From: Cryomorphaceae bacterium | GTDB taxonomy: Bacteria; Bacteroidota; Bacteroidia; Flavobacteriales_D; SKUL01 | Direction of reading: 5' to 3' | Assembly (NCBI GenBank): GCA_007695365.1 | Contig: REDV01000059.1 | Span: 1 to 64,000 of the forward strand | DNA: 64,000 nucleotides | Shown: one piece after another, positions 4,646 to 63,282 of the stretch | Layout: every line of letters begins with the position of its first letter | Position numbering within the stretch: position 1 is the stretch's first letter | The notes under the pieces: generated by a model | Databases searched by the model: none | What the model was told of the DNA's origin: nothing | What the model saw: the letters and a program-made list of their open reading frames with translations, nothing else | Made by a program: the position numbers and the translations under genes

Positions 4646-5237
4646 TGCTGTCTTCCCCAATTACTAGCTCCACGGCTTTCTTACTTCCCCAATTCCGCAT
4701 TCCTTCCGATCGGTGGATGATTTCGTTCGCGGTGTTGATGACCAGGGTAGTTGGGAGCGAAGATGCCTCAAGTTCAGGGGGTGCGTTTTGGAGGGGAAAA
4801 TACACGGGTAGGTCCCAACCGTGGTTTTCGAGAAAGGCCCTTACTTTTTCGGGCGGGTCGTAGGTAACCAGTACAAAATGGGCTTCACCACCGGTTTGTT
4901 CCATCAATGACAGGATAGACGGCATCTCTGCACGGCAAGGTGCACACCACGTAGCCCAGAAATTCAGAAACAAGGGTTTGTCCGAAAAATCCGCCAAAAC
5001 GAATCTGTTGCCGTTGAGGTCGGCAAGTTGCCAGTTCAGTGTCGAAGCGTCAAGCGCCTGCTTTTCATTGGCCTTCGTGCTCCCGAAAATTCCGGTTTGA
5101 ATCAATCCGCGCTGAACCCATACTCTGCCATCGGGGATTACCAATAGAACGAGCACCGTCAAAAGTACTGCATCCCAAAAGATGGATACCGGCCCTCGCT
5201 GTTTGTAACGCTCCCAAAAATGCTTGATTTTTTGCAT
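4629..5237 (-). CDS. Membrane-anchored TlpA/ResA-like thioredoxin
   Basis: About 202 residues from the ATG at 5237 (a TTG two codons earlier is possible). An N-terminal membrane helix (AVLLTVLVLLVIP, about 23-36) is followed by a thioredoxin fold with the active site WCAPC (Cys 98 and 101) inside FLNFWATWCAPCRAEMP, and the cis-Pro loop SLPTTLVI. Such proteins reduce disulphides on the extracytoplasmic side, for example during cytochrome c maturation or in extracytoplasmic redox repair. The last residues (DSREQEF and the stop) are encoded by the neighbouring CTCTTGCTC repeat, so the tail has probably been rewritten by repeat expansion. No cytochrome genes are adjacent. Confidence 0.85.
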   Translation of the reverse strand: MQKIKHFWERYKQRGPVSIFWDAVLLTVLVLLVIPDGRVWVQRGLIQTGIFGSTKANEKQALDASTLNWQLADLNGNRFVLADFSDKPLFLNFWATWCAPCRAEMPSILSLMEQTGGEAHFVLVTYDPPEKVRAFLENHGWDLPVYFPLQNAPPELEASSLPTTLVINTANEIIHRSEGMRNWGSKKAVELVIGEDSREQEF

Positions 5238-40909: not shown

Positions 40910-43900
40910 ATTAGAACATTCTTTCGCATACTGCTATGGTCTGCCATTGGGTTGTTGCTGTTGGGATATTCTCTCAACGTTGCGCTTCGATTGCCTGTGG
41001 TGCAAACATTTGTGACCGCCAAAGTGGCTACGTGGTTGGGCAATCAGCTCGGTACACGCATTGAAGTACAAGCCGTGCATTTCGAATTCTTCGACACTTT
41101 TACCCTCAAGGGGTTGTACATTGAAGATCAGCAAGGCGATACCTTGCTCTACACCGAGCGGCTGAGGCTCAATCTCGAAATTTTGCGGTTCAGAACCGAG
41201 GTGGCAGAGTTTGACTTGATTCAGTTCGACCGGCCGGTTTTTTACCTTGAAATCAACGAAGATTCAGTGGGAGGCACGAACCTCGATTTTATCGTGAATT
41301 ATTTTCGGCCGGCGCAGCCCGATACTATGGATAAACCCCACTGGTCGCTCTATACGGACGATCTAAGAATCAATGACGCTCACTTCAGGCTGCGCAAACG
41401 GGGAGCAGACCATAAAGAATTCGGAATGGATTTCGAAAACCTCGATGTGCACGATATCCAATTGCGCTTCGAAAAAGTTGAATGGCTGGCCGATACACTC
41501 TACGCGGATGTGCAGCACATTACACTGAAAGAGCAAAGTGGTTTTGTAATTAATGAGTTGCAGGGTTTGCTCAAGCTTTCCTCCGGCGGACTCGAGTTTC
41601 AAAACCTCATGTTGGAAACGCCCAACTCGGAGCTAAAAGGAGAGCTGAGTTTTCACCACAACAACTTCAGAGCCTACCGGCAGTTTGTAGATTCGGTTAG
41701 AATTCGTTCGCGTTTTGAAGGAAGTGTTTTGGGGTTCAGGGATGTGAGCTACTTCGCCCCCGGGCTGGAAGGCTTTCGGCAGCAAATTGGGGTGGACGGA
41801 CGCATCCGCGGCTCCATTTCCAATCTCAAAGGCACCGGAATGAAAATTCACCTGGGAGACGACTCCTATTTTCTTGGGAACTGTGATTTAATAGGTCTGC
41901 CCAATGTGCAGTCAACCTACATGAACCTGGATGTGCGCAAGGTATTGCTGACCTACACCGATTTGCAGCAAATTCAAATTCCGCCTTTTAAGGACCTGCG
42001 ATACCTTACCGTACCTGATGAATTTAAAACATTGGGAACGATGCGTTTTAACGGACAATTCACGGGCTTTTTCAACAGCTTTGTGGCTTTTGGGAACCTC
42101 AGAACCGACATCGGAAACCTGGGGCTTGACCTTGGCATTGAACAACCGGAAACTGCCGGCGAAGCGGCCTATTCCGGCTTGTTGGTGAGTGACCAGTTTG
42201 ATTTTGGGCGCTTTTTCGGGATGGAAGATCTGGGCAGGGTAGCAGCCAATGTTGAAGTGAAAGGAAGCGGATTTTCGCTCGATAATGTCAATGCTGAAGT
42301 TCGGGGAAAAATCGACCAGCTTGTTTTCAGGGATTACTCCTACGAGGATATCTCGGTCGGCGCGCAACTTGAGCGCAACCTCTTTAACGGAAAAATGAGC
42401 ATCAACGACCGCAACATCAGCCTCGATTTTGATGGTTTGATTGATCTTCGGGCCGATACAGCGCAACTGGATTTTGTGAGCAACATCTTCCACATGGATT
42501 TTGGCGCGCTGAACTTGCTTCCGCTCAAGCAGTATTCCAGCCTTACCACGCGTCTGGAAGTGGGGATTCAAGCCGTGAACGTGAACCAGTTCAAGGGCGA
42601 AGCCACGGCGATTTCAACCCTGCTTTGCATCGGTCAGGAAGACGACGACGAACACGAATTTGACCTAGGTGATGTATGGCTTTCATCGGCACGTGAGGCT
42701 GATCGCGGACGGGTCTTGCTGCAGTCAGCCGTGGCAGATGCCGAAATTGTGGGCAAATTTCAGGTGCAAACCCTTGCCAACAGCTTTCTCTCAGTAGTTC
42801 ACTCAGCATTGCCTGCGCTGTTTGAAAATCGCGATACCCCGTGGGAAGTCGCCGAGCAGCGTTTCGATTACTCTGTAGTAGTGAAAGATTTCTCCATGGT
42901 GAGCGACTGGCTCTTGCCCGCCCTCGGAATGAATGAAGGCGCCACCTTTGAGGGAGTCTATGATTCCAAGCGAATGTTCTTTCAAATCAGCTCACAAATT
43001 CCCGAGCTTCGAACAGGCGGGGTGCGCTTCAAAAATTTCACCTTCGACGCCGAAAACAACAACGGTATTCTTGTGGCCGAAGCCGCAGCAGAAGCATTGC
43101 CCTTTAGCGATAGCCTGCACTTTGAACACCTCGACCTGCGCCTCAAAGCACAGCAAGACCAGTTTGACGCCGACTTTTTCTTTACTGATCGCGCAAGCCG
43201 CGGAAAACAAAGCCACATTCCCTTTTCAGGAGAGTTTCTGGGTCCGCGTACTTTCCACTTCGATTTGGATACTGTAAGTGTGCATTTGCTCGACGAGCAC
43301 TGGATAAGCCTTGAAAGCAGCTCGCTGGATGTAGATTCAACTGCGTTTACCTTTTCGCAATTCCGGATGCACAGTGATACGCGCATGGTGGGTATTCACG
43401 GGACCGTTTCCGAAGACATGGAACAAGCCCTCGCCTTTGAAATCGTGAACCTCAATATTGATATCATCAACCGCCTTACGCCTGAAAATGTTCCTAACTT
43501 TTTTGGAATCCTCAACGCCGACGGGCAAATGAAAGGAGCCGACGAGGGGCGCGATATCAACAGCACCATTGACCTCAGCCGCTTTAAAATTGAAGACCAG
43601 GAAGTGGGAACCCTGCACGTGGATGCCCGTTGGAATCTTCAACAAGCCCTGCTCGATATCAGCGGACAAATGCGCTTTCGCGATACGGAAACCATTGCCA
43701 TTGAAGGAACCTACAATCCGCAATTAGAAGAAGATCCGCTGGATGTACAGTTTGAGCTCGACGGTCTCAGTCTGGCCATTCTCAACAGCATCATTCCCGG
43801 AGGGGTGAGCGATTTTACCGGTGGAGCCCACGGCAAGCTCAAAGCCTCCGGAACTTTTCGAGAGCCCAAATTTCACGGCGACCTGACCCTGCGCGATGCC

Positions 43901-45370
43901 AGTGTAAAAGTGGACTACCTCAATACCAGGTATTTTGTGGATGATAAGGTGGTGGTACGCCCCGACTTTATTGGTTTTAACTACATTCCCATCAGGGACG
44001 AGGAAGGCAATCCCGGTAGAATGATCGGTACGCTTTTTCATGAGAATTTCCGCGATTTTACCTACCACTTTTATGTAGAGATGGAGCGTTTTCTTTGTCT
44101 CAACACCACCATGTACGACAACGACCTGTTCTACGGAAAGGCATACGGAACGGGCACGGTAAACATCACCGGCTATGAAGACAATCTGGATATAGAGGTG
44201 AGCGCAACTTCCAAACCCGGTACCATGATTTTCCTTCCGCTCGGAGGCCCCAAGGAGGTAACCTTGGAGCGCTTTGTGAGCTTTGTAAGTGCCGATGGTA
44301 TAGTAGAGGCCCCCGCAGAACTCGACCTCACGGGTATCCGGCTGGTGATGGACATAGAAACCACACCCGATATGCTGGTAGAGCTTGTTTTTGACGAAAG
44401 CCTGGGCGATATGATGCGCGTGCGCGGAAGTGGTCCTATCAACATGGAAATCAGCAGCGACGGACAGTTCACCATGTTCGGGCGCTACGAAATAGAACAA
44501 GGGGAGTACCTTTTTACGTTGCAAAACATTATCAACAAACGTTTTAGTATTCAGCGTGGTAGTGTGATAGGGTGGTACGGAGATCCTTACAACGCAGATA
44601 TTGACCTGCGGGCAGTGTATAAACTCAGGGCTTCACTTGCCGATTTGATGGGTGAATTTGCCGAGGGATTTACCAGTCGGGTTCCGGTAAACCTTGTGCT
44701 CAAACTCACCAACAAGCTCATGAATCCTGATGTGGATTTCAGTGTAGAATTGCCTACTTCCGACGAGAGTATGCAAAACCTTGTAAACAGCGTGCTCAGC
44801 TCCGAAGAAGAAAAAAACAAACAGGCTTTTGCGCTTCTGGTTCTCAACAGGTTTTTACCTCCCTCAAACCGGGCGGCGGTAACGGCAGGAGGGCAGATGA
44901 ACATCGGCGCGGCCACCACCACCGAAATGATGTCGAATCAATTGAGCAACTGGTTGTCGCAAATTTCCGACGACTTTAACGTGGGGGTCAATTACCGCCC
45001 GGGCGATAACATCACCAACGAAGAACTTGCCGTGGCGCTCTCCACGCAATTGCTCAACGACCGTCTGCTGCTGAGCGGTAGTTTTGGTGTGGCCAACAGT
45101 CCGGCCAACGTTACAGCCGAAACCAACAACCAGGTAATCGGCGACTTTATGGCTGAGTACCTCATCACCGAGGACGGTAAACTAAGACTGAAAGTGTTCA
45201 GTGAATCAGCTGATTACAATATCCTTCAAACCTACCGTACGGGTTCAATGCAGGGGGCGGGTATTGCCTACCAGGAAGACTTCAACTCATTTGCAGATCT
45301 CGCCTGCAAACTCCGCAACATGCTTCGCAAAAGAGGCGATCGCGTGGTGTGCGATGATTTATATAGGTAG
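40910..45370 (+). CDS. tamB: TamB-like envelope translocation/assembly protein
   Basis: About 1,486 residues. An N-terminal membrane anchor (FFRILLWSAIGLLLLGYSLNVALRL) is followed by a long beta-helical AsmA/TamB-type body and the TamB domain at the C-terminus (FNVGVNYRPGDNITNEELAVAL, TGSMQGAGIAYQEDF). TamB-type proteins span the periplasm and carry lipids or help insert outer-membrane proteins. No ATG lies in frame before the anchor; a TTG at 40952 would delete half of it, so I place the start at an ATT at 40910 (another ATT at 40907), which is uncertain. No tamA gene adjoins it. The intergenic space after it holds the left copy of a repeat shared with 53.9 kb. Confidence 0.85.
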   Translation: MRTFFRILLWSAIGLLLLGYSLNVALRLPVVQTFVTAKVATWLGNQLGTRIEVQAVHFEFFDTFTLKGLYIEDQQGDTLLYTERLRLNLEILRFRTEVAEFDLIQFDRPVFYLEINEDSVGGTNLDFIVNYFRPAQPDTMDKPHWSLYTDDLRINDAHFRLRKRGADHKEFGMDFENLDVHDIQLRFEKVEWLADTLYADVQHITLKEQSGFVINELQGLLKLSSGGLEFQNLMLETPNSELKGELSFHHNNFRAYRQFVDSVRIRSRFEGSVLGFRDVSYFAPGLEGFRQQIGVDGRIRGSISNLKGTGMKIHLGDDSYFLGNCDLIGLPNVQSTYMNLDVRKVLLTYTDLQQIQIPPFKDLRYLTVPDEFKTLGTMRFNGQFTGFFNSFVAFGNLRTDIGNLGLDLGIEQPETAGEAAYSGLLVSDQFDFGRFFGMEDLGRVAANVEVKGSGFSLDNVNAEVRGKIDQLVFRDYSYEDISVGAQLERNLFNGKMSINDRNISLDFDGLIDLRADTAQLDFVSNIFHMDFGALNLLPLKQYSSLTTRLEVGIQAVNVNQFKGEATAISTLLCIGQEDDDEHEFDLGDVWLSSAREADRGRVLLQSAVADAEIVGKFQVQTLANSFLSVVHSALPALFENRDTPWEVAEQRFDYSVVVKDFSMVSDWLLPALGMNEGATFEGVYDSKRMFFQISSQIPELRTGGVRFKNFTFDAENNNGILVAEAAAEALPFSDSLHFEHLDLRLKAQQDQFDADFFFTDRASRGKQSHIPFSGEFLGPRTFHFDLDTVSVHLLDEHWISLESSSLDVDSTAFTFSQFRMHSDTRMVGIHGTVSEDMEQALAFEIVNLNIDIINRLTPENVPNFFGILNADGQMKGADEGRDINSTIDLSRFKIEDQEVGTLHVDARWNLQQALLDISGQMRFRDTETIAIEGTYNPQLEEDPLDVQFELDGLSLAILNSIIPGGVSDFTGGAHGKLKASGTFREPKFHGDLTLRDASVKVDYLNTRYFVDDKVVVRPDFIGFNYIPIRDEEGNPGRMIGTLFHENFRDFTYHFYVEMERFLCLNTTMYDNDLFYGKAYGTGTVNITGYEDNLDIEVSATSKPGTMIFLPLGGPKEVTLERFVSFVSADGIVEAPAELDLTGIRLVMDIETTPDMLVELVFDESLGDMMRVRGSGPINMEISSDGQFTMFGRYEIEQGEYLFTLQNIINKRFSIQRGSVIGWYGDPYNADIDLRAVYKLRASLADLMGEFAEGFTSRVPVNLVLKLTNKLMNPDVDFSVELPTSDESMQNLVNSVLSSEEEKNKQAFALLVLNRFLPPSNRAAVTAGGQMNIGAATTTEMMSNQLSNWLSQISDDFNVGVNYRPGDNITNEELAVALSTQLLNDRLLLSGSFGVANSPANVTAETNNQVIGDFMAEYLITEDGKLRLKVFSESADYNILQTYRTGSMQGAGIAYQEDFNSFADLACKLRNMLRKRGDRVVCDDLYR

Positions 45371-45407
45371 GAGAGAAGCCGTGAATGCTTCAATATACAT
45401 TACCCCA

Positions 45408-45492
45408 TCTCGTCATGGTTGCAAACCAGGACCAGGAAGGGTTAGAAGATGTGTGATCTAAAAATCACACTATAATGTGGTTTCACCTGTTT
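45408..45492 (+). repeat. Direct repeat A, left copy
   Basis: About 85 bp whose sequence recurs at 53850-53938 in the same orientation: CATCTCGTC, GCAAACCAG, AGGAAGG, then ATCACACT, TAATGTG and TTT. Several substitutions and short gaps separate the copies. The left copy contains the first HipB-type operator. Together with repeat B it frames the HipBST/subtilase segment. Confidence 0.7.
45466..45479. promoter_or_regulatory. Operator O1 of the hipBST operon
   Basis: CACACTATAATGTG is a 14-bp near-palindrome (one mismatched pair). It is repeated at 45527 and 45589 with 61 and 62 bp start-to-start spacing, about six helical turns, which allows cooperative binding on one DNA face. Assignment to HipB is inferred from position. 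Confidence 0.6.
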
Positions 45493-45526
45493 CACATCCC
45501 GTTTCAGAGCATATAGATCCATAAAT

Positions 45527-45540
45527 CACAATATAATGTG
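45527..45540. promoter_or_regulatory. Operator O2 of the hipBST operon
   Basis: CACAATATAATGTG, a near-palindrome of the same family as O1 and O3. It ends eight bases before the predicted -33 TTG of the hip promoter, so a bound repressor would touch the upstream edge of RNA polymerase. Confidence 0.6.
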
Positions 45541-45547
45541 TTTTTGC

Positions 45548-45578
45548 TTGTCGTTTTAGAGAACAAACCTTATTTTTG
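45548..45578 (+). promoter_or_regulatory. Predicted promoter of the hipBST operon
   Basis: TTG at 45548-45550, a 20-nt spacer and TATTTTTG at 45571-45578 fit the Bacteroidota consensus. The start site would be near 45585, about 13 nt before the hipB ATG. Operators O2 and O3 flank this promoter, the usual plan of an autoregulated toxin-antitoxin operon. Confidence 0.6.
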
Positions 45579-45588
45579 ACTCTAAAAC

Positions 45589-45602
45589 CACACTATAATG
45601 TT
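45589..45602. promoter_or_regulatory. Operator O3 of the hipBST operon, overlapping the hipB start codon
   Basis: CACACTATAATGTT includes the hipB ATG (45598-45600). It is one base from the O1 sequence and lies just downstream of the predicted transcription start, so occupancy would block initiation. Confidence 0.6.
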
Positions 45603-45810
45603 AGTTGGAGTTCTTGGTGAAACAATCAAAAAAAGACGGAAGGAGTTGAGCATAACTCAACCTCACCTGGCAGAACTGGCAAATGTCAGTACAAACACGC
45701 TTTATAAATTAGAAAGAGGACAAGGTAATCCTTCGTTAGATGTGTTGAACAAATTGGCTGAAGTGTTGGGAATGGAGCTAACCCTTGAGGTGAAAAAGCT
45801 GTCCCGGTAA
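45598..45810 (+). CDS. hipB: HipB-like antitoxin, XRE-family HTH regulator
   Basis: 70 residues, essentially one XRE helix-turn-helix: GETIKKRRKELSITQPHLAELANVSTNTLYKLERGQGNPSLDVLNKLAEVLGMEL. It should bind the three near-palindromic operators upstream (45466, 45527, 45589), the last of which overlaps its own start codon, and repress the operon. It is first in the order HTH, HipA N-terminal domain, kinase, the order described for the tripartite HipBST toxin-antitoxin of enteropathogenic E. coli. A 22-bp gap separates it from hipS. No extra C-terminal tail of the type that plugs HipA in E. coli K-12 is visible. Confidence 0.88.
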   Translation: MLVGVLGETIKKRRKELSITQPHLAELANVSTNTLYKLERGQGNPSLDVLNKLAEVLGMELTLEVKKLSR

Positions 45811-45832
45811 TTTCGGAAGAAATATTGAGTAA

Positions 45833-46162
45833 ATGAGAGTAATGGAAATATATCGCAACGGCACACTGGCCGGAACTCTGACAGAAGAGAACCGAAAGCA
45901 TTATATTTTCAGATATGATGATCAATATTTCAACGATTTAAGTAAGCCACCGATCAGTTTGACATTACCCAAAACGTATCAGGAATATAGCAGCAATTAT
46001 TTGTTTCCCGTTTTCTTCAATATGCTGAGTGAAGGAGTGAACAGGAAATTTCAAAGCACACATTTAAAAATAGACGAGGATGATCATTTTGGTTTACTGG
46101 GAGCAACAGCACAATTTGACACAATTGGAGCAATAACCGTAAAACCAATAACGGTAAGATGA
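45833..46162 (+). CDS. hipS: HipS-like protein (separate HipA N-terminal subdomain)
   Basis: 109 residues matching the N-terminal subdomain of HipA: EIYRNGTLAGTL, then PPISLTLPKTYQEYSSNYLFPVFFNMLSEGVNRKF and DHFGLLGATAQFDTIGAITVKP. In the HipBST systems this piece is a separate gene and acts as the antitoxin against the HipT kinase, while HipB mainly regulates and strengthens binding. The ATG at 45833 is preferred; ATG 45842 is close behind. It overlaps hipT by four bases (ATGA), which keeps antitoxin and toxin synthesis coupled. Confidence 0.85.
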   Translation: MRVMEIYRNGTLAGTLTEENRKHYIFRYDDQYFNDLSKPPISLTLPKTYQEYSSNYLFPVFFNMLSEGVNRKFQSTHLKIDEDDHFGLLGATAQFDTIGAITVKPITVR

Positions 46163-47187
46163 ACTTAACTGAATTAAAATATTGCCCGGGAACATTGGCA
46201 GAAGGTTTTTCTACTTATAGCCCGGGCTGCTTCCGGAATTTGTTCAGCGGCAAGAGGGTTAATCATGTTTTGCCCTATGAGCAGCCCCGGCAAAGCGAAG
46301 AAGTTGCAGAACAATTCATGGAAAATCGCAAACGCATATCCATATCCGGGGTTCAAGAAAAATTGAGCTTTCTTTTAGAGAAAAATGTATTGCGATTAAC
46401 AAGGGAAGGAGAACAGGGAACATATATCCTTAAGCCGATACCAGTTGATTTAAAAAAAGTTGATCAGGTGCCGGCCAACGAGCATCTTACCATGCAAATA
46501 GCCAAACAAGTGTACGGTCTGAATACGGCAGAAAACGCTATGATTTTTTTTAGAAATGGTACACCTGCCTACATTACCAAAAGATTTGACGTTAAAGAAA
46601 ACACCGGTCTGCCAAACGGACAGGGAGATAAGTGGGGCAAAGAAGATTTTGCAACACTTGCAGGAAGAACAAAAGACAATGCAGGTACAAACTTCAAATA
46701 TGAATACAGCTATGAAGAGGTAGGTCAGCTGATCCGGCAATTTGTTCCGGCATGGCGCGTAGAAATAGAAAAGTATTTCTCGTTGGTTGTTTTCAATTAC
46801 CTGTTCTCAAACGGAGACGCTCATTTAAAGAACTTTTCTCTTCTTGAATCACCAAGCGGAGATTATCTGTTGAGTCCTGCTTATGATTTGGTTAATACAA
46901 AACTTCATGTGGACGATACAGATTTTGCATTAGAAAAAGGACTGTTTGCAGACAAATTTAAAAGTGACCAGTACAAAAAAAGCGGTCATCCTTCTAAAGC
47001 AGACTTCGTGGAATTTGCACTGAGAATTGGAGTTGCAGAAAGCAGGGTTGAGAAGCTATTAAATCCTTTTTTAGAAAAGCAAGATTTTGTCGAAATACTC
47101 ATCAGTCGTTCTTTTTTAGCTGAGGCCAACAAGAGAGGGTACTTGCTTATGTATAACACAAAAAGAAATTATTTAATCGCCCAATGA
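46159..47187 (+). CDS. hipT: HipT-like Ser/Thr kinase toxin
   Basis: 342 residues: the kinase core of HipA without its N-terminal subdomain. The Gly-rich loop reads RISISGVQEK, so it has Ser61-Ile-Ser63, the SIS motif by which HipT is distinguished from HipA. Later elements are the ATP-contact Lys in TYILKPIP (about 92), the catalytic loop FSNGDAHLKN (Asp220, Asn225) and the metal-binding PAYDL (Asp243). Known HipA/HipT toxins phosphorylate aminoacyl-tRNA synthetases (GltX for HipA, TrpS for HipT) and stop growth; the target here is unknown. All catalytic residues are intact. The 3' end is followed within 15 bp by a fragment of ribBA (repeat B). Confidence 0.88.
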   Translation: MNLTELKYCPGTLAEGFSTYSPGCFRNLFSGKRVNHVLPYEQPRQSEEVAEQFMENRKRISISGVQEKLSFLLEKNVLRLTREGEQGTYILKPIPVDLKKVDQVPANEHLTMQIAKQVYGLNTAENAMIFFRNGTPAYITKRFDVKENTGLPNGQGDKWGKEDFATLAGRTKDNAGTNFKYEYSYEEVGQLIRQFVPAWRVEIEKYFSLVVFNYLFSNGDAHLKNFSLLESPSGDYLLSPAYDLVNTKLHVDDTDFALEKGLFADKFKSDQYKKSGHPSKADFVEFALRIGVAESRVEKLLNPFLEKQDFVEILISRSFLAEANKRGYLLMYNTKRNYLIAQ

Positions 47188-47201
47188 GATTGAACCGCCA
47201 A

Positions 47202-47252
47202 CACGGCTCAACGCTCACGATTACCTTCGTCAAAAAAACGGAGTGAGTGGCC
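47202..47252. repeat. Direct repeat B, left copy: fragment of the ribBA 3' end
   Basis: About 51 bp matching 53998-54048, including a perfect 29-bp core at 47224-47252. In the right copy this sequence is the last codons of ribBA. Read on the minus strand, the left copy would end a RibBA-like protein as [10 protein letters not shown] followed by NRER and a stop. Homology stops just past the core, so this is a displaced gene-end fragment. Confidence 0.8.
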
Positions 47253-47401
47253 ACTAACCCTGAGCAGTGAACTGTGCATTGGGTTGATTCTAAAGTGTTA
47301 AAAATTTGGATTTAAAAAATATTCTTTTCAACTTGATACCCCTTTACGGAGGCGTTCCTCTTTTAACCAACAGTATGTCAACCAACTAAACACTAATTGC
47401 C

Positions 47402-47518
47402 ATGATGAATCCATTTCAAACTTACGGTCATCTTACCGATTTATCTGCTCAGTTTTGTGTCAGCGAAACTTCATTTTTCCAAAGATATCTGCTAACAGGG
47501 GGGGGCACAGGAAGTTAA
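47402..47518 (+). other. ATG-started leader frame before the subtilase, ends just past the 8-G tract
   Basis: A 38-codon frame starts MMNPFQTYGHLTDL and ends in TAA at 47516, ten bases after an eight-G run at 47498-47505. One extra G would join it to the subtilase frame and give that protein an ATG start. It may therefore be the true N-terminus of a phase-variable gene rather than a separate peptide. Confidence 0.4.
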
Positions 47519-50500
47519 TCTTTACTGTCTGTCTTTCGCTACTTTGCGGTATGGTTCAACTTCAAGCTCAATCACAGGTTTTTATTTCCGAAAAATGGAG
47601 TGGCATAGGAGGTGTAACTGAGGTGTTTCACCACAATGTAACCGCAACAGATGGCCAAAAGAACATCTACATTGCAGGTTCTACCATAAATGATTTTGGC
47701 AACCACGATATCATTCTCCAGAAGTTTGACCGCGAAGGAGATTTGTTGTGGCAGCAAACCTACAACGGTCAGGCCAATTTAGACGATATGGCCGCTGATG
47801 TTTTTGTTGACAGTGCTAACAACGTATATATTACAGGAACCAGCACTGAAAGCCTGCAAGCGGGTTATGATTTATGTGTGCTGAAATACAGCAGCCAGGG
47901 AGCACTCCTTTGGAGTTATTTTTACGACAACGGCGCCTCACCCTTGCCAATGGATGCGGGTACGGCAATTATAGGCGATAATGACGGGAGCATATTTGTA
48001 ACCGGCGGAAGTATGGGCAACAATACGATGTCAGATTTTGTGACCATCCGGCTAAACGCTGGCAACGGCAATGAAGTTTGGGTGGAGCGCTACGATTATG
48101 ACGGCTTGAATGATCTGGCCGCCAAAATAGCCCTTACCGATGGTAAAGTGGTTGTGGCAGGGGCGAGCCAGATTTCTGCCTCACCCGATAGTTGGGAACT
48201 CGCCACATTAACCTATGCCATATCTGATGGTGAATGGCTTGCTGAGCAGCGCACCACGGGTAGCGCAACCGACGGAGTAGATGAAATCAGTGACATCACA
48301 TTGGACGATGATTTTATTTATCTGGCTGGTGCGGTGTACAACAGCGGAAATGATTTCGATATTCGTGTTTACAAGCTCGATGAAGAGCTGAACATCGTTT
48401 GGGAAGTTGACTTTGACGGATACCAGGGCGTGGATAAGGCCCGGGGAATAAAAGTAGATGCCGATGGCTTTGTTTATGTTGCCGGGTTTGTTACCAGCCC
48501 CACCGAAGGAAGAAACTACATCACACTGAAGTACGACTCCGCCGGAAATCTGAAATGGAGCCGTGAGTACAACGGCCAGTCCAATGCGGATGATGAAGCT
48601 GTGCAACTGGTCATAGACGAGCACGACAGAATATTTGTGACTGGCAAGCTTCAGAACAGCAACTACACAGACTTTGTGACCGTCGGTTATTACAGCAATG
48701 GCGATCCCTTTGGGCAAGCAATATTTTACAGCCCCAATGGCCTGAATGACCGCCCCTCATCAATAACCATCGATTTAGACGGCGACCTGATTGTAACCGG
48801 CCAGTGCGAGCAACCCTCGGGAGGCATGCGTACCTATACCGTAAAGTACCGGGTGTATGATAAACCCATTGTGCCGGTAATGATTGATAGCGTGGTATCT
48901 CACAACGCGAATGAGTTGTTGATTCGTTTTGACCGTTCTTCAATGAAGTATGAAGCTGTAGACAATCGAAGCTTTGTGGCAGGCGCATTAAGTGAATTCG
49001 TAAGGCCGCAAGTTATAGCCAGTATGAACAATCAGGTTGCCGGAGTTGATTTCAAGAAAGTGCAAGCATTTAAGGTATTTAGACGAATGACCAGAAGTGA
49101 TAGTTTATCTCTAACTCGATTGGGGGATACTTTGCGTCTTGATGACTATTGGGCAACATTATCTATCTTTCTTCCTGAATACGTTGATTTGGAAAATGTA
49201 TTGGATAGTTTAACTACTTTGTATCCAAATGTTCGTTTTTCATGTTTAAATGAATTTTATGCTAAACATGCGATTCCGAATGACGAGCTCGTTGGATCAG
49301 ATGAGCAAGCGAGTTTGCTAACAACAAGCAATTTTCCCAATGCGCATATTAATTTGCTTCCTGCCTGGAATGTTTCTACTGGTTCCTGGTCATACTTTGC
49401 ACCGAAAGTTGGTGTTTATGATACTCCTGTTTATTGGGCCCATGAGGACTTTGGGAATGGAAGCTTTGAGGGATCTAAGATTAAAGGCGGTTATGACGCG
49501 AATACAGATATTCATATATCAAATATTTTCACTCCACATGATAGTCACGGAACTTCGGTGGCGGGTGTAATAGGTGCACTTCGGAACAATGGCAAAGGAA
49601 TAGCGGGGATTGCTGGCGGAGATGTGGATGGCATCGGTTCAACTGGCGCAGATTTATATTCGTTTGGTATTTTTAGCTCAAGCTTAGTTTCAGTAAGCAA
49701 TCAATCAGGGTTCGTGGGTGTCGCTTCAGTCGCAAGTGCTATTCAAGAGGGAGCAATTATGACGCCAGAAGGGAGTTACGGTTATGGTCTAGAGCTTCAG
49801 AATCATAGTTGGAGTGGGGTTGCTCCAAATCCTCTAATCAGAGAAGCAATTGAATTGGCCTGGAGGAATGATTGTGCAATAGTTGCTTCAAGAGGTAATG
49901 ATGGAACTACCCAACTGCTTTATCCGGCCTGCTATGACGATGCTCACGTCATGAGCGTGATTGCTAGTGGTAACGACGGTGAATGGAAGTTTGGACTAAG
50001 CAACGGAATAGAGGATTGGAGCTCAAATTATGGTGGTGATGCGGATTTTATGGCACCAGGCTCTGCCGACGTTGTTTCATCAACTATTTTCTCTGAAGAG
50101 CCCTATAGTTTTCCTCAGTCAAATTGTACATCTGATTTATATCCGGATTATCAATGTTTTCCTGGCACTTCGGCAAGTGCAGCGCATGTATCCGGCGTTG
50201 CAGCCTTGATGATGGCTGCCCACAACATCCACAATGGAGCTCCAAGCAATCTGGCACCGGAGGATATTGAGAAAATTCTTGAGAAAACGGCAAATGGCTC
50301 TGGTAACTATACCCAAGAGCAAGGTTGGGGTTTAATCAATGCGGGAGATGCTTTGAACGCAGTCAATCATCCCGAATATTACATTATTCATCCTCAATTA
50401 ACAGATATACAAGAGTCAGTAGTCACTGATGTCTCTGTTGTTTTAGCGGTCAGCTCTCACGGACTTGCAGCTGGTTCTTACATAGCAGATAAACATCACA

Positions 50501-51063
50501 TACAATTGACTTATCAGGTAACGTTGCCTGGTAATCATGAAATTATTGACTGGTGGCCGTTAGAAAGTAAGACATTTAAAGGTGTAGGTCCCGGTAATCC
50601 TATCAGCGGTGATCCTTGGATGTTAGTGAACTCTTCGGTTGATCTCGGCTCTAATACAGCTACGATTAATGTAGAAACCTATGCGTGGTGGGTAAAGCAG
50701 CAACAGGTAACTCAGCAGACCATTTATCAGGCTATTCCCAGTTTTTTTAATGTTGGGTACGGATATTCCTTGCACGTCAAAAACAATAGTATTACATCTG
50801 AGCGCCCGATTGAAGACTACAAATTGAAAGTATATCCTAATCCCGCATCCAATTTTTTGTTTATTAATTTGGAAGTTGAGGCAATGGGTGATACAAAATT
50901 TTCTGTGTTTGATGCAATTGGTAATTCCGTTTTGGATGGTGTTTATTCAAGAAATAGTTCCGGGGTAGTAACTATCGATATTTCCAAATTGCCGAGTGGG
51001 TTGTACGTGTGTAAGTTGCAGTCGGGTGAACAAATGTTCACTTCAAAATTTATTGTTCAATAA
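47455..51063 (+). CDS. Surface subtilase (S8) with SBBP beta-propeller repeats and T9SS type A domain
   Basis: 1,202 residues in the frame as written, started at TTG 47455 for want of an ATG. A signal peptide (HRKLIFTVCLSLLCGMVQLQAQ) is followed by SBBP-type propeller repeats (ITGTSTESLQAGYDLCVLKYSSQGALLWSYFY and similar). The S8 protease domain has the triad Asp656 (VGVYDTP), His698 (HDSHGTSVAGV) and Ser906 (FPGTSASAAHVSG), plus the oxyanion Asn in ASRGNDG. The end (LKVYPNPASNFLFINLEV to SKFIVQ) is a T9SS sorting domain. An 8-G tract in the 5' coding region and a change to AT-richer DNA from about 48.9 kb are notable. The next gene overlaps its stop as TAATG. Confidence 0.85.
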   Translation: MCQRNFIFPKISANRGGHRKLIFTVCLSLLCGMVQLQAQSQVFISEKWSGIGGVTEVFHHNVTATDGQKNIYIAGSTINDFGNHDIILQKFDREGDLLWQQTYNGQANLDDMAADVFVDSANNVYITGTSTESLQAGYDLCVLKYSSQGALLWSYFYDNGASPLPMDAGTAIIGDNDGSIFVTGGSMGNNTMSDFVTIRLNAGNGNEVWVERYDYDGLNDLAAKIALTDGKVVVAGASQISASPDSWELATLTYAISDGEWLAEQRTTGSATDGVDEISDITLDDDFIYLAGAVYNSGNDFDIRVYKLDEELNIVWEVDFDGYQGVDKARGIKVDADGFVYVAGFVTSPTEGRNYITLKYDSAGNLKWSREYNGQSNADDEAVQLVIDEHDRIFVTGKLQNSNYTDFVTVGYYSNGDPFGQAIFYSPNGLNDRPSSITIDLDGDLIVTGQCEQPSGGMRTYTVKYRVYDKPIVPVMIDSVVSHNANELLIRFDRSSMKYEAVDNRSFVAGALSEFVRPQVIASMNNQVAGVDFKKVQAFKVFRRMTRSDSLSLTRLGDTLRLDDYWATLSIFLPEYVDLENVLDSLTTLYPNVRFSCLNEFYAKHAIPNDELVGSDEQASLLTTSNFPNAHINLLPAWNVSTGSWSYFAPKVGVYDTPVYWAHEDFGNGSFEGSKIKGGYDANTDIHISNIFTPHDSHGTSVAGVIGALRNNGKGIAGIAGGDVDGIGSTGADLYSFGIFSSSLVSVSNQSGFVGVASVASAIQEGAIMTPEGSYGYGLELQNHSWSGVAPNPLIREAIELAWRNDCAIVASRGNDGTTQLLYPACYDDAHVMSVIASGNDGEWKFGLSNGIEDWSSNYGGDADFMAPGSADVVSSTIFSEEPYSFPQSNCTSDLYPDYQCFPGTSASAAHVSGVAALMMAAHNIHNGAPSNLAPEDIEKILEKTANGSGNYTQEQGWGLINAGDALNAVNHPEYYIIHPQLTDIQESVVTDVSVVLAVSSHGLAAGSYIADKHHIQLTYQVTLPGNHEIIDWWPLESKTFKGVGPGNPISGDPWMLVNSSVDLGSNTATINVETYAWWVKQQQVTQQTIYQAIPSFFNVGYGYSLHVKNNSITSERPIEDYKLKVYPNPASNFLFINLEVEAMGDTKFSVFDAIGNSVLDGVYSRNSSGVVTIDISKLPSGLYVCKLQSGEQMFTSKFIVQ

Positions 51064-52049
51064 TGAAGCCCAGTAAGCTTATGCCTCGTTACTTGCTCAT
51101 CTTGACAACCGTGCTCATATTTGCGATTTCCACGACATCATGCAGGAAAGACCATTCTTTGGTGCAAGATGATGATGAATTGAAACCTAATCAATGTGTA
51201 CCTCTTCCACCGGAATACCATGACGTGATTGGCTGGATGACCTTTCAGTCTGAGTTGCCTCGCCAATTGAGACCTTGCTTCAACCCGATGAATAGCAATG
51301 AGATTGTTTTTCAGGAAGATTTAGAATCCGGTACATCGGGTATCTATAAATTCAACTTAATTACCAAAGAGAAAATTTTTCTCACGGAAGGCCCATTGGT
51401 TAGTCAGCCGAGTTGGGGGGTAAATGATTGGCTTCTTCTTGTGTTCAACGACTTCAATGTATGGAGAATCAGGTCGGATGGCACTGGTTTGGAGCGAATT
51501 ACCGAAGGAGGTGGATTTTACTCACCGAAATGGAATGTGAACGGAACCGGATTTGTGACTAATTTGCCTTTTCAGCCCAATTTTTCCCTTGTGCACGATA
51601 TCAATGGTGAGATTATCGATACCTTGTTATTCGATGTTCGCCACAGCTACACTCTGGAAAAAGACCCATACATTGTTGTGCACCACCAAAGCCTGTACAG
51701 GGTGTATGACCGCTCAGCGAATAATATTGTTTCAGAGTATCAATTTCAATCATTTTGGGGTGGAGGAGGTGCTGGCTCTGTATTTTGGAAAGATGATTAC
51801 AGCTTGATTTTTAGCAATCCTGACGGGATACATAGTACTGACTTTGGGTATCAGCAGTTATGTAGACTGGTTGATGCCTGCAATTCAGTTTCATATTCGC
51901 ATGGCGATATTAACAACGAAAAAACGCAAATGATATGGTCGCGCACTCAACGCGAGTTCATTGGTTCTGCTACAGTCAGAATTACAACAAGACTTCAACT
52001 TATGGATGTAAGCGGTAATGTGCTGATGGCTGATGTGCTTGAGGAATAG
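51063..52049 (+). CDS. TolB/PD40-like lipoprotein (paralogue 1)
   Basis: 328 residues. Lipoprotein signal peptide with Cys27 in ISTTSCRKDHS. The mature part has beta-propeller-like blades (RPCFNPMNSNEIVFQED, SQPSWGVNDWLLLVF, VWRIRSDGTGLERI, YSPKWNVNGTGFVT), a pattern shared with the proteins encoded at 52160 and 53232. It shares one base with the subtilase stop (TAATG), so it is translated from the same message. A role as a surface partner or inhibitor of the subtilase is possible but not shown. Confidence 0.75.
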   Translation: MKPSKLMPRYLLILTTVLIFAISTTSCRKDHSLVQDDDELKPNQCVPLPPEYHDVIGWMTFQSELPRQLRPCFNPMNSNEIVFQEDLESGTSGIYKFNLITKEKIFLTEGPLVSQPSWGVNDWLLLVFNDFNVWRIRSDGTGLERITEGGGFYSPKWNVNGTGFVTNLPFQPNFSLVHDINGEIIDTLLFDVRHSYTLEKDPYIVVHHQSLYRVYDRSANNIVSEYQFQSFWGGGGAGSVFWKDDYSLIFSNPDGIHSTDFGYQQLCRLVDACNSVSYSHGDINNEKTQMIWSRTQREFIGSATVRITTRLQLMDVSGNVLMADVLEE

Positions 52050-52068
52050 CGGGAGTAAATACTTTGTA

Positions 52069-52158
52069 ATGGGTACACAACAACTGAAGAGTGGAATGTA
52101 TATCGTGTCATATACTCAAGACGGAATGACTCAGAATAGAAAACTAATTGTGAAATAA
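52069..52158 (+). pseudogene. Orphan 3' fragment of a T9SS sorting domain
   Basis: A 29-codon frame reads MGTQQLKSGMYIVSYTQDG and ends KLIVK and a stop, the typical last part of a T9SS type A sorting domain (LKSGxYxVxx...KLIVK). There is no upstream gene in this frame. It is probably the remnant of a lost T9SS gene between the two lipoprotein genes. Confidence 0.6.
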
Positions 52159-52159
52159 T

Positions 52160-53191
52160 ATGAGACAAATGAGAATTTGGGTGCTTCCGATAGTATTCGC
52201 CGTTGTTTTTTCTTCCTGTAAGAAAGACCCACCATCTATGAATGGCATTTATCTGCCTTGTACAGGTGGAGACTTCATTCCCTCACCCGGTGGCATGCTT
52301 TCGATGATTACGTTAGAGGGGCCGCAATTCACAAAACCGGTTTTTAATCCCAATAATGCATGTGAATTTGTTTATCAGCGTTTTGATAACAGTAAATACC
52401 AATTGCGCAGGCACAATTTTGAAACGGGTGAAGATGTTTTGCTCCTCGATGATGTCAGTATCATCTCCAAACCTTCGTGGGGTACAAATGACTGGATTGC
52501 TTTTGATTCCTTTCCCCACTACCGGATCAGAGCAGTGCACGCCAGAGACCAAACAGTGGTGCAAATCAGTGATGAAATCTACAGGTTATATCCCATGTGG
52601 ATGCCAGATGGAGATGAGATATTGTATCAGTATTCACCGGTATTGGGTATTCCGTATTACTTGTTACGAGTAGCTTTTAATCCGGAAGAGACGCCGTCAG
52701 ATCAAGCAGACACTTTGTTTGTAGGGCCGCATAGAGCAATGAGCGTAGCCGCCAATTCTTCAATCATTGCAGGTAAATTCGAAACCATGGACAATTACTT
52801 TTTCGGATTCGCTGAAATTCAGGATATAGATTTTAATCTACATGTACTGCCTCCGGACGATTTTCATTTGGTCGCTAACATATTTCATAGTTGTGTCTCT
52901 CCGGATGGCACCACAGCTTATTTTACGACTTATTTGAACAACAGCGACGATGGCCTTTACAGGGTCAATCTGGATTCTAAAACGCATGAAAAAGTACTTG
53001 AACATTGCCGGTTTTCACAAATTAAAGATATCGATCATGCTCCCGATAGTGAGTCTTTGTTAATTGTTCGCCAACACGAACGTTTTGGATACCACGATGA
53101 TGGTCGCCCTGATGGTAAAATCTACCAACAATCTCGTATATATCTGCTGGATTTGCACACCCTTGCGGAAAGAGCAGTTTTGTATGAATGA
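52160..53191 (+). CDS. TolB/PD40-like lipoprotein (paralogue 2)
   Basis: 343 residues with a lipoprotein signal peptide (MRQMRIWVLPIVFAVVFSSCKKD). It aligns with paralogue 1: KPVFNPNNACEFVYQRF against RPCFNPMNSNEIVFQED, SKPSWGTNDWIAFDSF against SQPSWGVNDWLLLVF, and a C-terminal strand LLDLHTLAERAVLYE. Central blades include RLYPMWMPDGDEILYQYSP and HSCVSPDGTTAYFTTY. It has no catalytic motif, so it is likely a binding propeller on the outside of a membrane. It begins one base after the orphan T9SS fragment. Confidence 0.75.
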   Translation: MRQMRIWVLPIVFAVVFSSCKKDPPSMNGIYLPCTGGDFIPSPGGMLSMITLEGPQFTKPVFNPNNACEFVYQRFDNSKYQLRRHNFETGEDVLLLDDVSIISKPSWGTNDWIAFDSFPHYRIRAVHARDQTVVQISDEIYRLYPMWMPDGDEILYQYSPVLGIPYYLLRVAFNPEETPSDQADTLFVGPHRAMSVAANSSIIAGKFETMDNYFFGFAEIQDIDFNLHVLPPDDFHLVANIFHSCVSPDGTTAYFTTYLNNSDDGLYRVNLDSKTHEKVLEHCRFSQIKDIDHAPDSESLLIVRQHERFGYHDDGRPDGKIYQQSRIYLLDLHTLAERAVLYE

Positions 53192-53231
53192 CCCAGGATT
53201 TAAAGCTCCGGCAGCATATCGTGAATGAGCA

Positions 53232-53922
53232 ATGCGAAAAATTGAGTTTTTGAAATATGGGTCGATTGGTTTGTTAATGGCTGCTGCCAGGCCCGGTACC
53301 CTCATTATTGCCGCTATGCTATTTGGCTCCTGCAAAAAAGAGCAACTACCATAGGTTGGAGAGGAATCGGTATGTATTCATCACGGCTCTTTCGTTTTAA
53401 AAATGATTGGAGGTGATGTTATTAGGAATGATGGTGTTCAGTACAAAAATCCGGTTTTCCAACCCTTGCAACCCGGAGGTTATTCTTGATCCTGGTGCCA
53501 TTGGTAGAGTTTGGGGACAGTATCGACTTACAGTTCATAGTTCCGGTATAGCTTACTTTTCAACGTTTGCCAATGCTGAAGAAGACGGCTTATTTCAATT
53601 TCACATTTCGTCGGGTGAATGGACCAAGTTAAGAGGACATTGTGTACTCAATCGTCCCACCCGATTGGATGTTAGTAGCGATGGCAACTCGCTCATTGTT
53701 TCACAATCTTTTGCTTATTTTCGATTGGCTCCTGAGGGCAATAAACCCGCTGGGTTTTACGATAACCGCAAACTTGTGCATTTTGACCTCAATACCCATG
53801 AGCAGACCTTGCTCGATTTACCTGAGCAGTGCAGTGATGGGGTAGATAACCCTCATCTCGTCCTCGTTTGCAAACCAGAACTAGGAAGGATTAAAGACAT
53901 GCAATCCAAAATCACACTTTAA
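53232..53922 (+). pseudogene. Decayed third TolB/PD40-like lipoprotein
   Basis: The gene begins with ATG 53232 and a lipoprotein signal (MRKIEFLKYGSIGLLM, lipobox LFGSC at codon 36) but stops at 53352 after 40 codons. Homology to paralogue 2 resumes at about 53400 (YKNPVFQP) and, in another frame, from about 53520 (SSGIAYFSTFANAEEDGLFQFHI, DVSSDGNSLIVSQSF, LVHFDLNTHEQTLLDL). The middle of the protein is missing. The final codons (NPHLVLVCKPEL...) run into repeat A. It is therefore a pseudogene with an internal deletion and frameshifts. Confidence 0.75.
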
Positions 53923-53938
53923 TGTGATTTTACTGGTT
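53850..53938 (+). repeat. Direct repeat A, right copy, with an orphan hip operator
   Basis: Matches 45408-45492 in the same orientation with several differences. It contains CACACTTTAATGTG at 53913-53926, one base from O1 of the hip operon, although no hip gene is near. Its left part is read through by the 3' end of the pseudogene. Confidence 0.7.
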
Positions 53939-53997
53939 CTTTTAAAAGCTCTGTCTCCTTCTCGTGTGCTATGTTGAGGAGGAAGAAGGCCTTTCTT

Positions 53998-54048
53998 CAC
54001 GACTCAATGCTCAAGCTTCCCTTCGTCAAAAAAACGGAGTGAGTGGCC
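53998..54048. repeat. Direct repeat B, right copy, inside the ribBA 3' end
   Basis: The intact counterpart of 47202-47252, with a perfect 29-bp core at 54020-54048. It encodes the last ~15 residues of RibBA ([10 protein letters not shown]...). The 22 bp next to the core differ at about five positions between the copies. Confidence 0.8.
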
Positions 54049-55236
54049 CATTTTTTCTTTTTTGGTGCGGAGGTATTTCTCGTTGTGCTGGTTGGAGCAA
54101 ATTTCAATGGGTACATTGTCCACCACCTCAAGTCCGTAGCCTATCAGGCCGGTGCGTTTTTTAGGATTATTACTCAGCAACTTCATTTTGGTAATGCCCA
54201 AATCGCGGAGTATTTGCGCACCGATACCGTAGTCGCGGTGGTCCATATTAAAGCCCAGCTTGATGTTGGCCTCCACGGTATCTAAACCTTCTTCCTGCAG
54301 TTTGTACGCCCTCAGTTTATTGATCAGTCCAATGCCACGCCCCTCCTGGTTCATATACACCAACACGCCTTTTCCTTCCTGTTCAATCATTTGAAGGGCG
54401 GTGTGCAATTGCGGTCCACAGTCGCAACGGCAGGAGCCAAAAATATCGCCGGTAATGCACGAGGAGTGCACCCGCACCAGCACAGGTTCTTCCGGTTCCC
54501 AGCTTCCTTTTACAAGGGCCAGGTGGTTTTGGTCGTTGGTGAGTTGCTTGTAGGCCACAAGATGAAAATCGCCGTATTCGGTGGGCATTTGCACGCTTAC
54601 CTCACGCTTTACAAGCCGCTCGTGTTTCATGCGGTAGGCAATAAGGTCTTTGATGCTCACCAGCTTCAGGTTAAACTTTTCGGCAATCACGCGGAGCTCG
54701 GGCAAACGCGCCATGGTGCCGTCTTCGTTCATGATTTCAACAATCACGCCGGCGGGTTCAAATCCGGCCAAACGGGCAAGGTCAATGGCTGCCTCGGTGT
54801 GTCCGGCGCGGCGCAGTACACCGCCTGCTTTGGCGCGCAACGGAAAAATATGTCCGGGTTTGCCCAGTTCAGAGGGCTTGGTATCAGGGTTAATCAGTGC
54901 CTGAACGGTTTTGGCGCGATCGCTGGCAGAGATACCGGTGGTACAGCCGTGCCCGATTAAATCAACCGATACGGTAAAGGGGGTTTCGTAGGCAGCAGTA
55001 TTGCTCGGCACCATCAACCCGAGGTCGAGTTCATCACAACGGCTTTCAATCAGCGGCGCACAAATCAGCCCGCGACCGTGCGTGGCCATAAAGTTGATCA
55101 TCTCCGGGGTTACACTTCGCGCCGCCGCAACAAAATCGCCTTCGTTTTCGCGGTCTTCATCATCCACCACAATCACCACTTTTCCGGCGCGGATTTCTTC
55201 AATGGCTTCCTCAATGGAATCAAGCCTTACTGACAT
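54004..55236 (-). CDS. ribBA: Bifunctional DHBP synthase / GTP cyclohydrolase II
   Basis: 410 residues, both riboflavin-pathway enzymes in one chain. The RibB domain comes first ([57 protein letters not shown]) and makes dihydroxybutanone phosphate from ribulose 5-phosphate. The RibA domain follows with the zinc site [15 protein letters not shown] and the motif [21 protein letters not shown], and opens GTP to the pyrimidine precursor. The last codons are repeat B, so the gene end coincides with the right edge of the accessory segment. Separate from the upstream glycosyltransferase genes by about 50 bp. Confidence 0.97.
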
Positions 55237-63220: not shown

Positions 63221-63282
63221 ACAATAAAAAAAAAACGCGTGAAGGCTTCGCCAGGAGCGGACTTTTGGTAATGGCCCCCCCC

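Follow-up and report, generated by a model that had tools for sequence, protein, structure and literature searches.

How did a hipBST toxin-antitoxin operon and a subtilase/lipoprotein cassette come to lie between the core genes tamB and ribBA, and why are two short sequences around them present in duplicate? The present study addresses this question in a Cryomorphaceae bacterium (assembly GCA_007695365.1, contig REDV01000059.1, positions 1 to 64,000); this whole 64,000-nucleotide stretch is referred to as the window. From left to right, the locus reads tamB, repeat A, hipBST, repeat B, the subtilase and lipoprotein-like genes, a second copy of A (A'), a second copy of B (B') and ribBA. The explanation that we favor, with a probability of roughly one half (0.52), is a stacked insertion, in which the subtilase/lipoprotein cassette would have arrived first and hipBST later, a local duplication leaving A'.

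The tamB-ribBA junction in other genomes

The insertion site is bounded by two genes:

40952..45370, plus strand: tamB, encoding a long TamB/AsmA-like protein; left boundary
54004..55236, minus strand: ribBA, with DHBP_synthase and GTP_cyclohydro2 domains (Pfam); right boundary

In four genomes of other families (G003, G029, G006, and G022), tamB and ribBA are direct convergent neighbors. The two stops overlap or touch in G003 and G029; the distance between them is 297 bp in G006 and 565 bp in G022. Glycosyltransferase and lptF genes follow, as in the window. Because both genes adjoin in these four genomes, the 8.6 kb between them in the window is inserted DNA. An empty junction in relatives, anticipated in a preliminary description of this DNA, is thus present. 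The GC (guanine-plus-cytosine) fraction is 0.39 for hip, 0.41 to 0.49 for the cassette, and 0.49 to 0.53 for the flanks.

Repeats A and B

The duplicated sequences are as follows:

45396-45492, plus strand: left copy of repeat A, made up of the distal hip operator preceded by about 55 bp of local sequence
53843-53938, plus strand: repeat A, right copy (A'); truncated hip leader with an orphan distal operator at 53909-53926
47202-47252, minus strand: repeat B, left copy; stray ribBA 3' end, with a 29-bp exact core at 47224-47252
53998-54048, minus strand: repeat B, right copy (B'); genuine ribBA 3' end, with the core at 54020-54048

Both repeats are confirmed, and their order, orientation, and gene layout are those of the preliminary description. 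The A copies align over about 100 columns with small gaps and are about 80% identical over 91 bp; they score 85, whereas the highest score among 2,000 dinucleotide shuffles was 34. B and B' are identical at 46 of 51 positions, all five differences lying outside the 29-bp core. B' comprises the final ten codons and the tail of ribBA. The left copy can be read in frame and stops at the same place as the ribBA end; B is a displaced ribBA 3' end, as had been proposed. The further suggestion that the copies came from different strains was not borne out, as the five differences outside the core fit the drift of an unused gene end equally well.

Had A and B been common repeats, their arrangement here would mean little. 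However, each has two copies only in the 3.52-Mb assembly: allowing up to 3 mismatches, neither the 29-bp core nor the upstream half of A has a third copy there. Furthermore, in 299 sampled genomes of the order, the upstream half of A has no genuine match; a 3-mismatch match in G154 looks like unrelated coding sequence. With two copies only, and no real match in those 299 genomes or in viral contigs, A was rejected as a dispersed repeat or attachment site. The tail of B was likewise rejected as a dispersed intergenic repeat, since its other near matches mostly look like scattered chance matches in coding sequence or lie in contig C115 of the same genome. The ribBA end has one viral match, in a phage protein, where ten residues coincide by chance. 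No tRNA or RNA family was found at the junctions, and no matching inverted repeats were found at the segment ends.

The hipBST operon and its operators

The operon and its upstream region contain the following features:

45598..45810, plus strand: hipB, HTH_3 protein of 70 amino acids (Pfam HTH_3, E=6e-14)
45833..46162, plus strand: hipS, 109 amino acids, with the HipA N-terminal (Couple_hipA) domain (Pfam, E=7e-20)
46159..47187, plus strand: hipT, 342 amino acids, HipA_C kinase without the N-terminal domain (Pfam, E=1e-38)
45462..45479, plus strand: distal hip operator, AAATCACACTATAATGTG, at -133 from hipB
45523..45540, plus strand: middle hip operator, at -72 from hipB
45585..45602, plus strand: proximal hip operator, at -10 from hipB, overlapping the hipB start codon

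HTH_3, Couple_hipA, and HipA_C thus follow one another in the order hipB-hipS-hipT, the separate HipS corresponding to the HipA N-subdomain that HipT is without. The best matches of HipT in PDB are Legionella HipT (7vkb and 8ezr). All three operators are palindromes of the form CACA-N6-TGTG. Judged partly by reading printed sequences, palindromes lie at matching positions in the hipBST loci of G008, G061, G144, G002, and G011; the G060 locus has the two nearest operators and a half-site at the third, and a second hipBST subclade (G091, G135, and G057) has a different motif in similar places. hipBST is expected to work as a kinase toxin-antitoxin module that represses itself through HipB bound at the three predicted operators.

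A is hip leader sequence, and its 3' part is the predicted distal operator of the hip operon; A' is therefore a hip leader cut off after the distal operator. Thus, the duplication of A described earlier is real, but A is partly a hip operator array rather than an independent repeat, and it extends slightly further left than first given. Nine other hip loci were examined, and the first 55 bp of A are absent from all of them (scores of 19 to 25 versus 85). Since the upstream half of A is found neither in these loci nor in any other sampled genome, A and A' would be related by a local event and not by two imports.

A sister genome with the subtilase but without hip

The order in a genome of the same genus (G001), in which the C-terminal part of TamB is 97% identical in amino acid sequence (41 to 48% in other families), is tamB, 36 bp, a decayed B-like stretch termed b (L022 3437-3482), and then the subtilase leader and gene. 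Neither A nor, at E<=1e-60, hipT was found in it. When b is compared with the 51-bp B', none of 2,000 shuffles reach its score; with a longer flank, 0 or 3 of 2,000 do, depending on the scoring. Apart from b itself, the only exact match to its 15-bp word in the two genomes is at ribBA.

As G001 has b and the subtilase after tamB and lacks both hip and A, B did not arrive with hip. Furthermore, the window flanks joined without hip give a score of 87 against G001, 100 shuffles reaching at most 80, with two near-equal joints (45370|47174 and 45384|47195). Since the flanks joined in this way reproduce G001 better than the shuffles do, the hip unit would be about 1.81 kb long and B would lie outside it. 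The earlier expectation that the segment would be missing from a sister genome thus holds for hip and A but not for the B-like stretch and the subtilase, which are present after tamB.

The favored explanation and its rivals

We propose that, in the genus ancestor, the subtilase/lipoprotein cassette landed at the ribBA 3' end of the convergent tamB/ribBA junction. After this first landing, the former end of ribBA (B) would have stayed next to tamB, and ribBA itself would have retained or recovered a complete end (B'). A compact hipBST unit of about 1.81 kb, consisting of the three-operator leader and the three genes, would have settled between tamB and B at a later time, in the lineage of this genome. 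A' beside ribBA would then remain from another copy of this unit that was made locally and has since been lost. The empty site, the order tamB-b-subtilase in G001, and the identities of B (ribBA end) and A (hip leader) are observed; the sequence of events, the loss of the additional hip copy, and the way in which the ends were joined are what we infer. For the joining, the most likely candidates are a site-specific recombinase that uses gene ends and was lost or acted in trans, and recombination of incoming DNA that was homologous on one side and illegitimate on the other.

Several observations weigh against a stacked insertion. Only one same-genus genome, G001, was available; it is 81% complete, the contig in question stops within the subtilase, and no ribBA turned up in the assembly, so that the B'/A' side is seen in the window alone. 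Conservation of b is weak where it corresponds to the 29-bp core. The exact core of the window looks younger than the split from G001 and would need a later conversion or re-duplication. With the two joints scoring alike, loss of hip in G001 is as possible as its gain here. A flanking gene-end duplication is absent at most other hip loci tested, and the assembly is a draft of 154 contigs.

The main rival is a tandem duplication with reciprocal loss, which we regard as somewhat unlikely. Here unequal crossing-over at B/B' would have doubled an ancestral B-subtilase-lipoproteins-A-hip-B'; loss of B and the subtilase part from the first copy, and of hip from the second, would then give tamB-A-hip-B-subtilase-lipoproteins-A'-B'-ribBA. 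This yields exactly the observed order and orientation, accounts for the local sequence of A/A' that is seen in no other hip locus, and makes the identical 29-bp core the crossover site. However, it requires two precise deletions, no hip was found in G001, and the short spacer that separates hipT from B is similar to the sequence flanking tamB in G001, which suggests that hip either entered or left that flank. Duplication followed by loss of hip from one copy, one of the routes offered in the preliminary description, is favored for A/A'. The other route offered there, a circle carrying A-hip-B taken up by Campbell-type homologous recombination, now appears very unlikely. The order A-hip-B ... 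A-B fits it, and relatives of hipBST do occur on Bacteroidota plasmids; yet the plasmid matches cover only part of the hip genes, and no viral contig contains A. A sister without hip should also be without the extra B under this scheme, yet G001 carries b, followed by the subtilase, after tamB.

Alternatively, the subtilase and hip could have arrived together in a single genomic island whose own integrase has since been lost, with the ribBA 3' end as its attachment site and B and B' as the left and right attachment sites (attL and attR). Indeed, the insert lies between two copies of a gene 3' end that share an identical core and both preserve the reading frame, and in an IMG/VR contig of a conjugative element hipBST stands directly behind a tyrosine integrase. 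The rlmH end is the gene end used by staphylococcal cassette chromosome (SCC) elements, and the same end is used in G060 (see below). We nevertheless consider an island improbable: the left-hand hip lies outside the B...B' interval, and the segment holds no recombinase. Specifically, Pfam gave no integrase or transposase domain in its main open reading frames, and the three Phage_integrase matches in the genome all lie on other contigs, in agreement with the earlier statement that no integrase is seen. A DDE transposon or insertion sequence was rejected, there being no transposase domain in the main open reading frames and no matching inverted repeats at the ends. An assembly chimera, in which the repeats joined unrelated contigs, is scarcely credible; although the assembly is a draft and the right side is without independent confirmation, the left side (tamB, b, and subtilase) is seen in an independent assembly, and all parts lie in one 70.7-kb contig.

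hipBST in other genomes and on mobile DNA

hipT was found in 10 of 199 genomes of the order. Across families, it is 79 to 81% identical in G060, G061, and G144, in contrast to the 41 to 48% measured for TamB. This patchy yet well-conserved occurrence counts in favor of the stacked insertion, as do the lower GC fraction of the insert and the cases of hipBST on mobile DNA. Relatives of hipBST are carried on Runella and Flammeovirga plasmids. In the IMG/VR contig mentioned above, which has conjugative-transfer genes, hipBST directly follows a 384-amino acid tyrosine integrase (L103 1-2746); a TraM gene of a conjugative transposon was also noted on that contig.

In G060, a genome of another family with a close HipT relative, hipBST is bounded by a 57-bp direct repeat that is 93% identical (L123 5141-7004), one copy being the rlmH 3' end. 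The repeat scores 98; shuffles reach at most 47, and random placements outside one tandem-repeat array at most 51. As a separate observation, this genome has tandem CCGTG/CCATCCGTGGC-like repeats, apparently in two intergenic places (L123 ~2340-2700 and 4758-4941). In G057 (L128 5667-7598), hipBST lies between pgi and an orphan MALHNINPTQTAA that is like the pgi start. The sequence similarity is suggestive of a duplication, marginal on DNA (p about 0.02-0.03, with about 3% of random placements scoring as high). A gapped flanking match in G061 was judged to be chance. Thus, flanking gene-end duplication was rejected as a rule for hipBST, being clear in G060, suggestive in G057, and absent in the other loci tested. 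In the window itself, the two sides of hip do not match, and no direct target copies flank hip.

A general linkage of hip and subtilase was also rejected, as besides this genome it was seen only in G008. In that genome (L108 2383-10899), a HipA-like gene and a subtilase lie within a few kb of hipBST, and two similar proteins in tandem come after the subtilase.

Comparison with known systems

HipBST modules are known from E. coli O127 (PMC6581861, PMC10627512) and Legionella pneumophila (PMC10653801, PMC9325769). The module described here shares with them the gene order, a HipT without the N-terminal domain, and a HipS equal to that domain. The Legionella operon likewise has three evenly spaced operators (PMC10653801). 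In contrast to its 18-nt sites, separated by 53-bp gaps and with the nearest 24 nt upstream of the start, the CACA-N6-TGTG operators in our study are spaced 61 to 62 bp start to start, and the proximal one lies over the start codon. Furthermore, an orphan operator lies 8.4 kb away here, whereas no further such site is reported for the genome of L. pneumophila.

Insertion with long target duplication was described for restriction-modification genes (Nobusato et al. 2000, as relayed in PMC1643837 and PMC4978471). As outlined in those two sources, the likeness lies in a small accessory cassette between direct target copies with no recombinase; here, such copies flank the subtilase cassette (B/B') and the G060 hipBST. 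With respect to that outline, our case differs in that a core-gene 3' end is duplicated, the cargo is a subtilase array (hipBST in G060), and two layers are stacked. Integrative elements at gene 3' ends, such as SCC at rlmH and SGI1 (Salmonella genomic island 1) at trmE (PMC8409611), show a duplicated 3' end with the frame kept and an identical core; the present insert also lies between gene-3'-end copies, with the site empty in relatives, but is without an integrase. By analogy with homology-facilitated illegitimate recombination (PMC3240628), a stray gene end could arise if one joint was homologous and the other was not. The new points are the stacking, the orphan operator, and the recurrence at rlmH, each part being of a known kind.

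The subtilase/lipoprotein cassette

The cassette comprises the following features:

47455..51063, plus strand: subtilase with SBBP propeller repeats and a type IX C-terminal tail (Pfam S8, 3e-23; Por_Secre_tail, 4e-14)
51063..52049, plus strand: lipoprotein-like protein 1, whose gene overlaps the subtilase stop; weakly homologous to the lipoprotein-like genes of contig C115
52069..52158, plus strand: orphan fragment of a type IX tail (Por_Secre_tail match with E=0.0036, which does not reach the curated cut-off)
52160..53191, plus strand: lipoprotein-like protein 2, with a weak WD40-like match
53240..53922, plus strand: broken third lipoprotein-like copy, running into A'

The layout of lipoproteins described earlier holds, except that the open reading frame before the right-hand A is a broken third copy. 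Relatives of the subtilase are widespread in the order. In the same genome, a paralogous array on contig C115 (L056 4455-11059) holds a second subtilase/lipoprotein set with orphan type IX tails, in which tail-plus-lipoprotein units are repeated at 1,348 and 1,666 bp. The tail fragment at 52069-52158 looks like a product of the same process.

A poly-G tract (47498-47505, 8 G) has a counterpart in G001 (L022 3724-3734, 11 G). It lies between an upstream ATG (47402) and the subtilase signal peptide, and in both species this ATG is out of frame with the subtilase, the offset being the same. The tract is a candidate phase-variation switch; alternatively, translation may start from a TTG at 47455. 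Elsewhere in the window, a run of 8 C followed by 11 A was noted at 63275.

Implications

The orphan operator beside ribBA, as the presumed relic of a lost copy, is a candidate off-site target of HipB. On a wider scale, Bacteroidota hipBST could be compact mobile units of about 1.8 kb that have no recombinase of their own, settle at core-gene ends (ribBA, rlmH, and pgi), and leave displaced gene-end copies of 38 to 57 bp. We consider this generalization unlikely. If it is true, the mode of movement known so far for restriction-modification genes would extend to a type II toxin-antitoxin module. Taken with the sister genome and the second case at rlmH in another family, the present locus indicates that stray ends of core genes may be footprints left by arriving toxin-antitoxin modules without recombinases; such footprints can be searched for systematically. 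The tamB-ribBA locus is a readable case of small selfish operons settling beside core genes.

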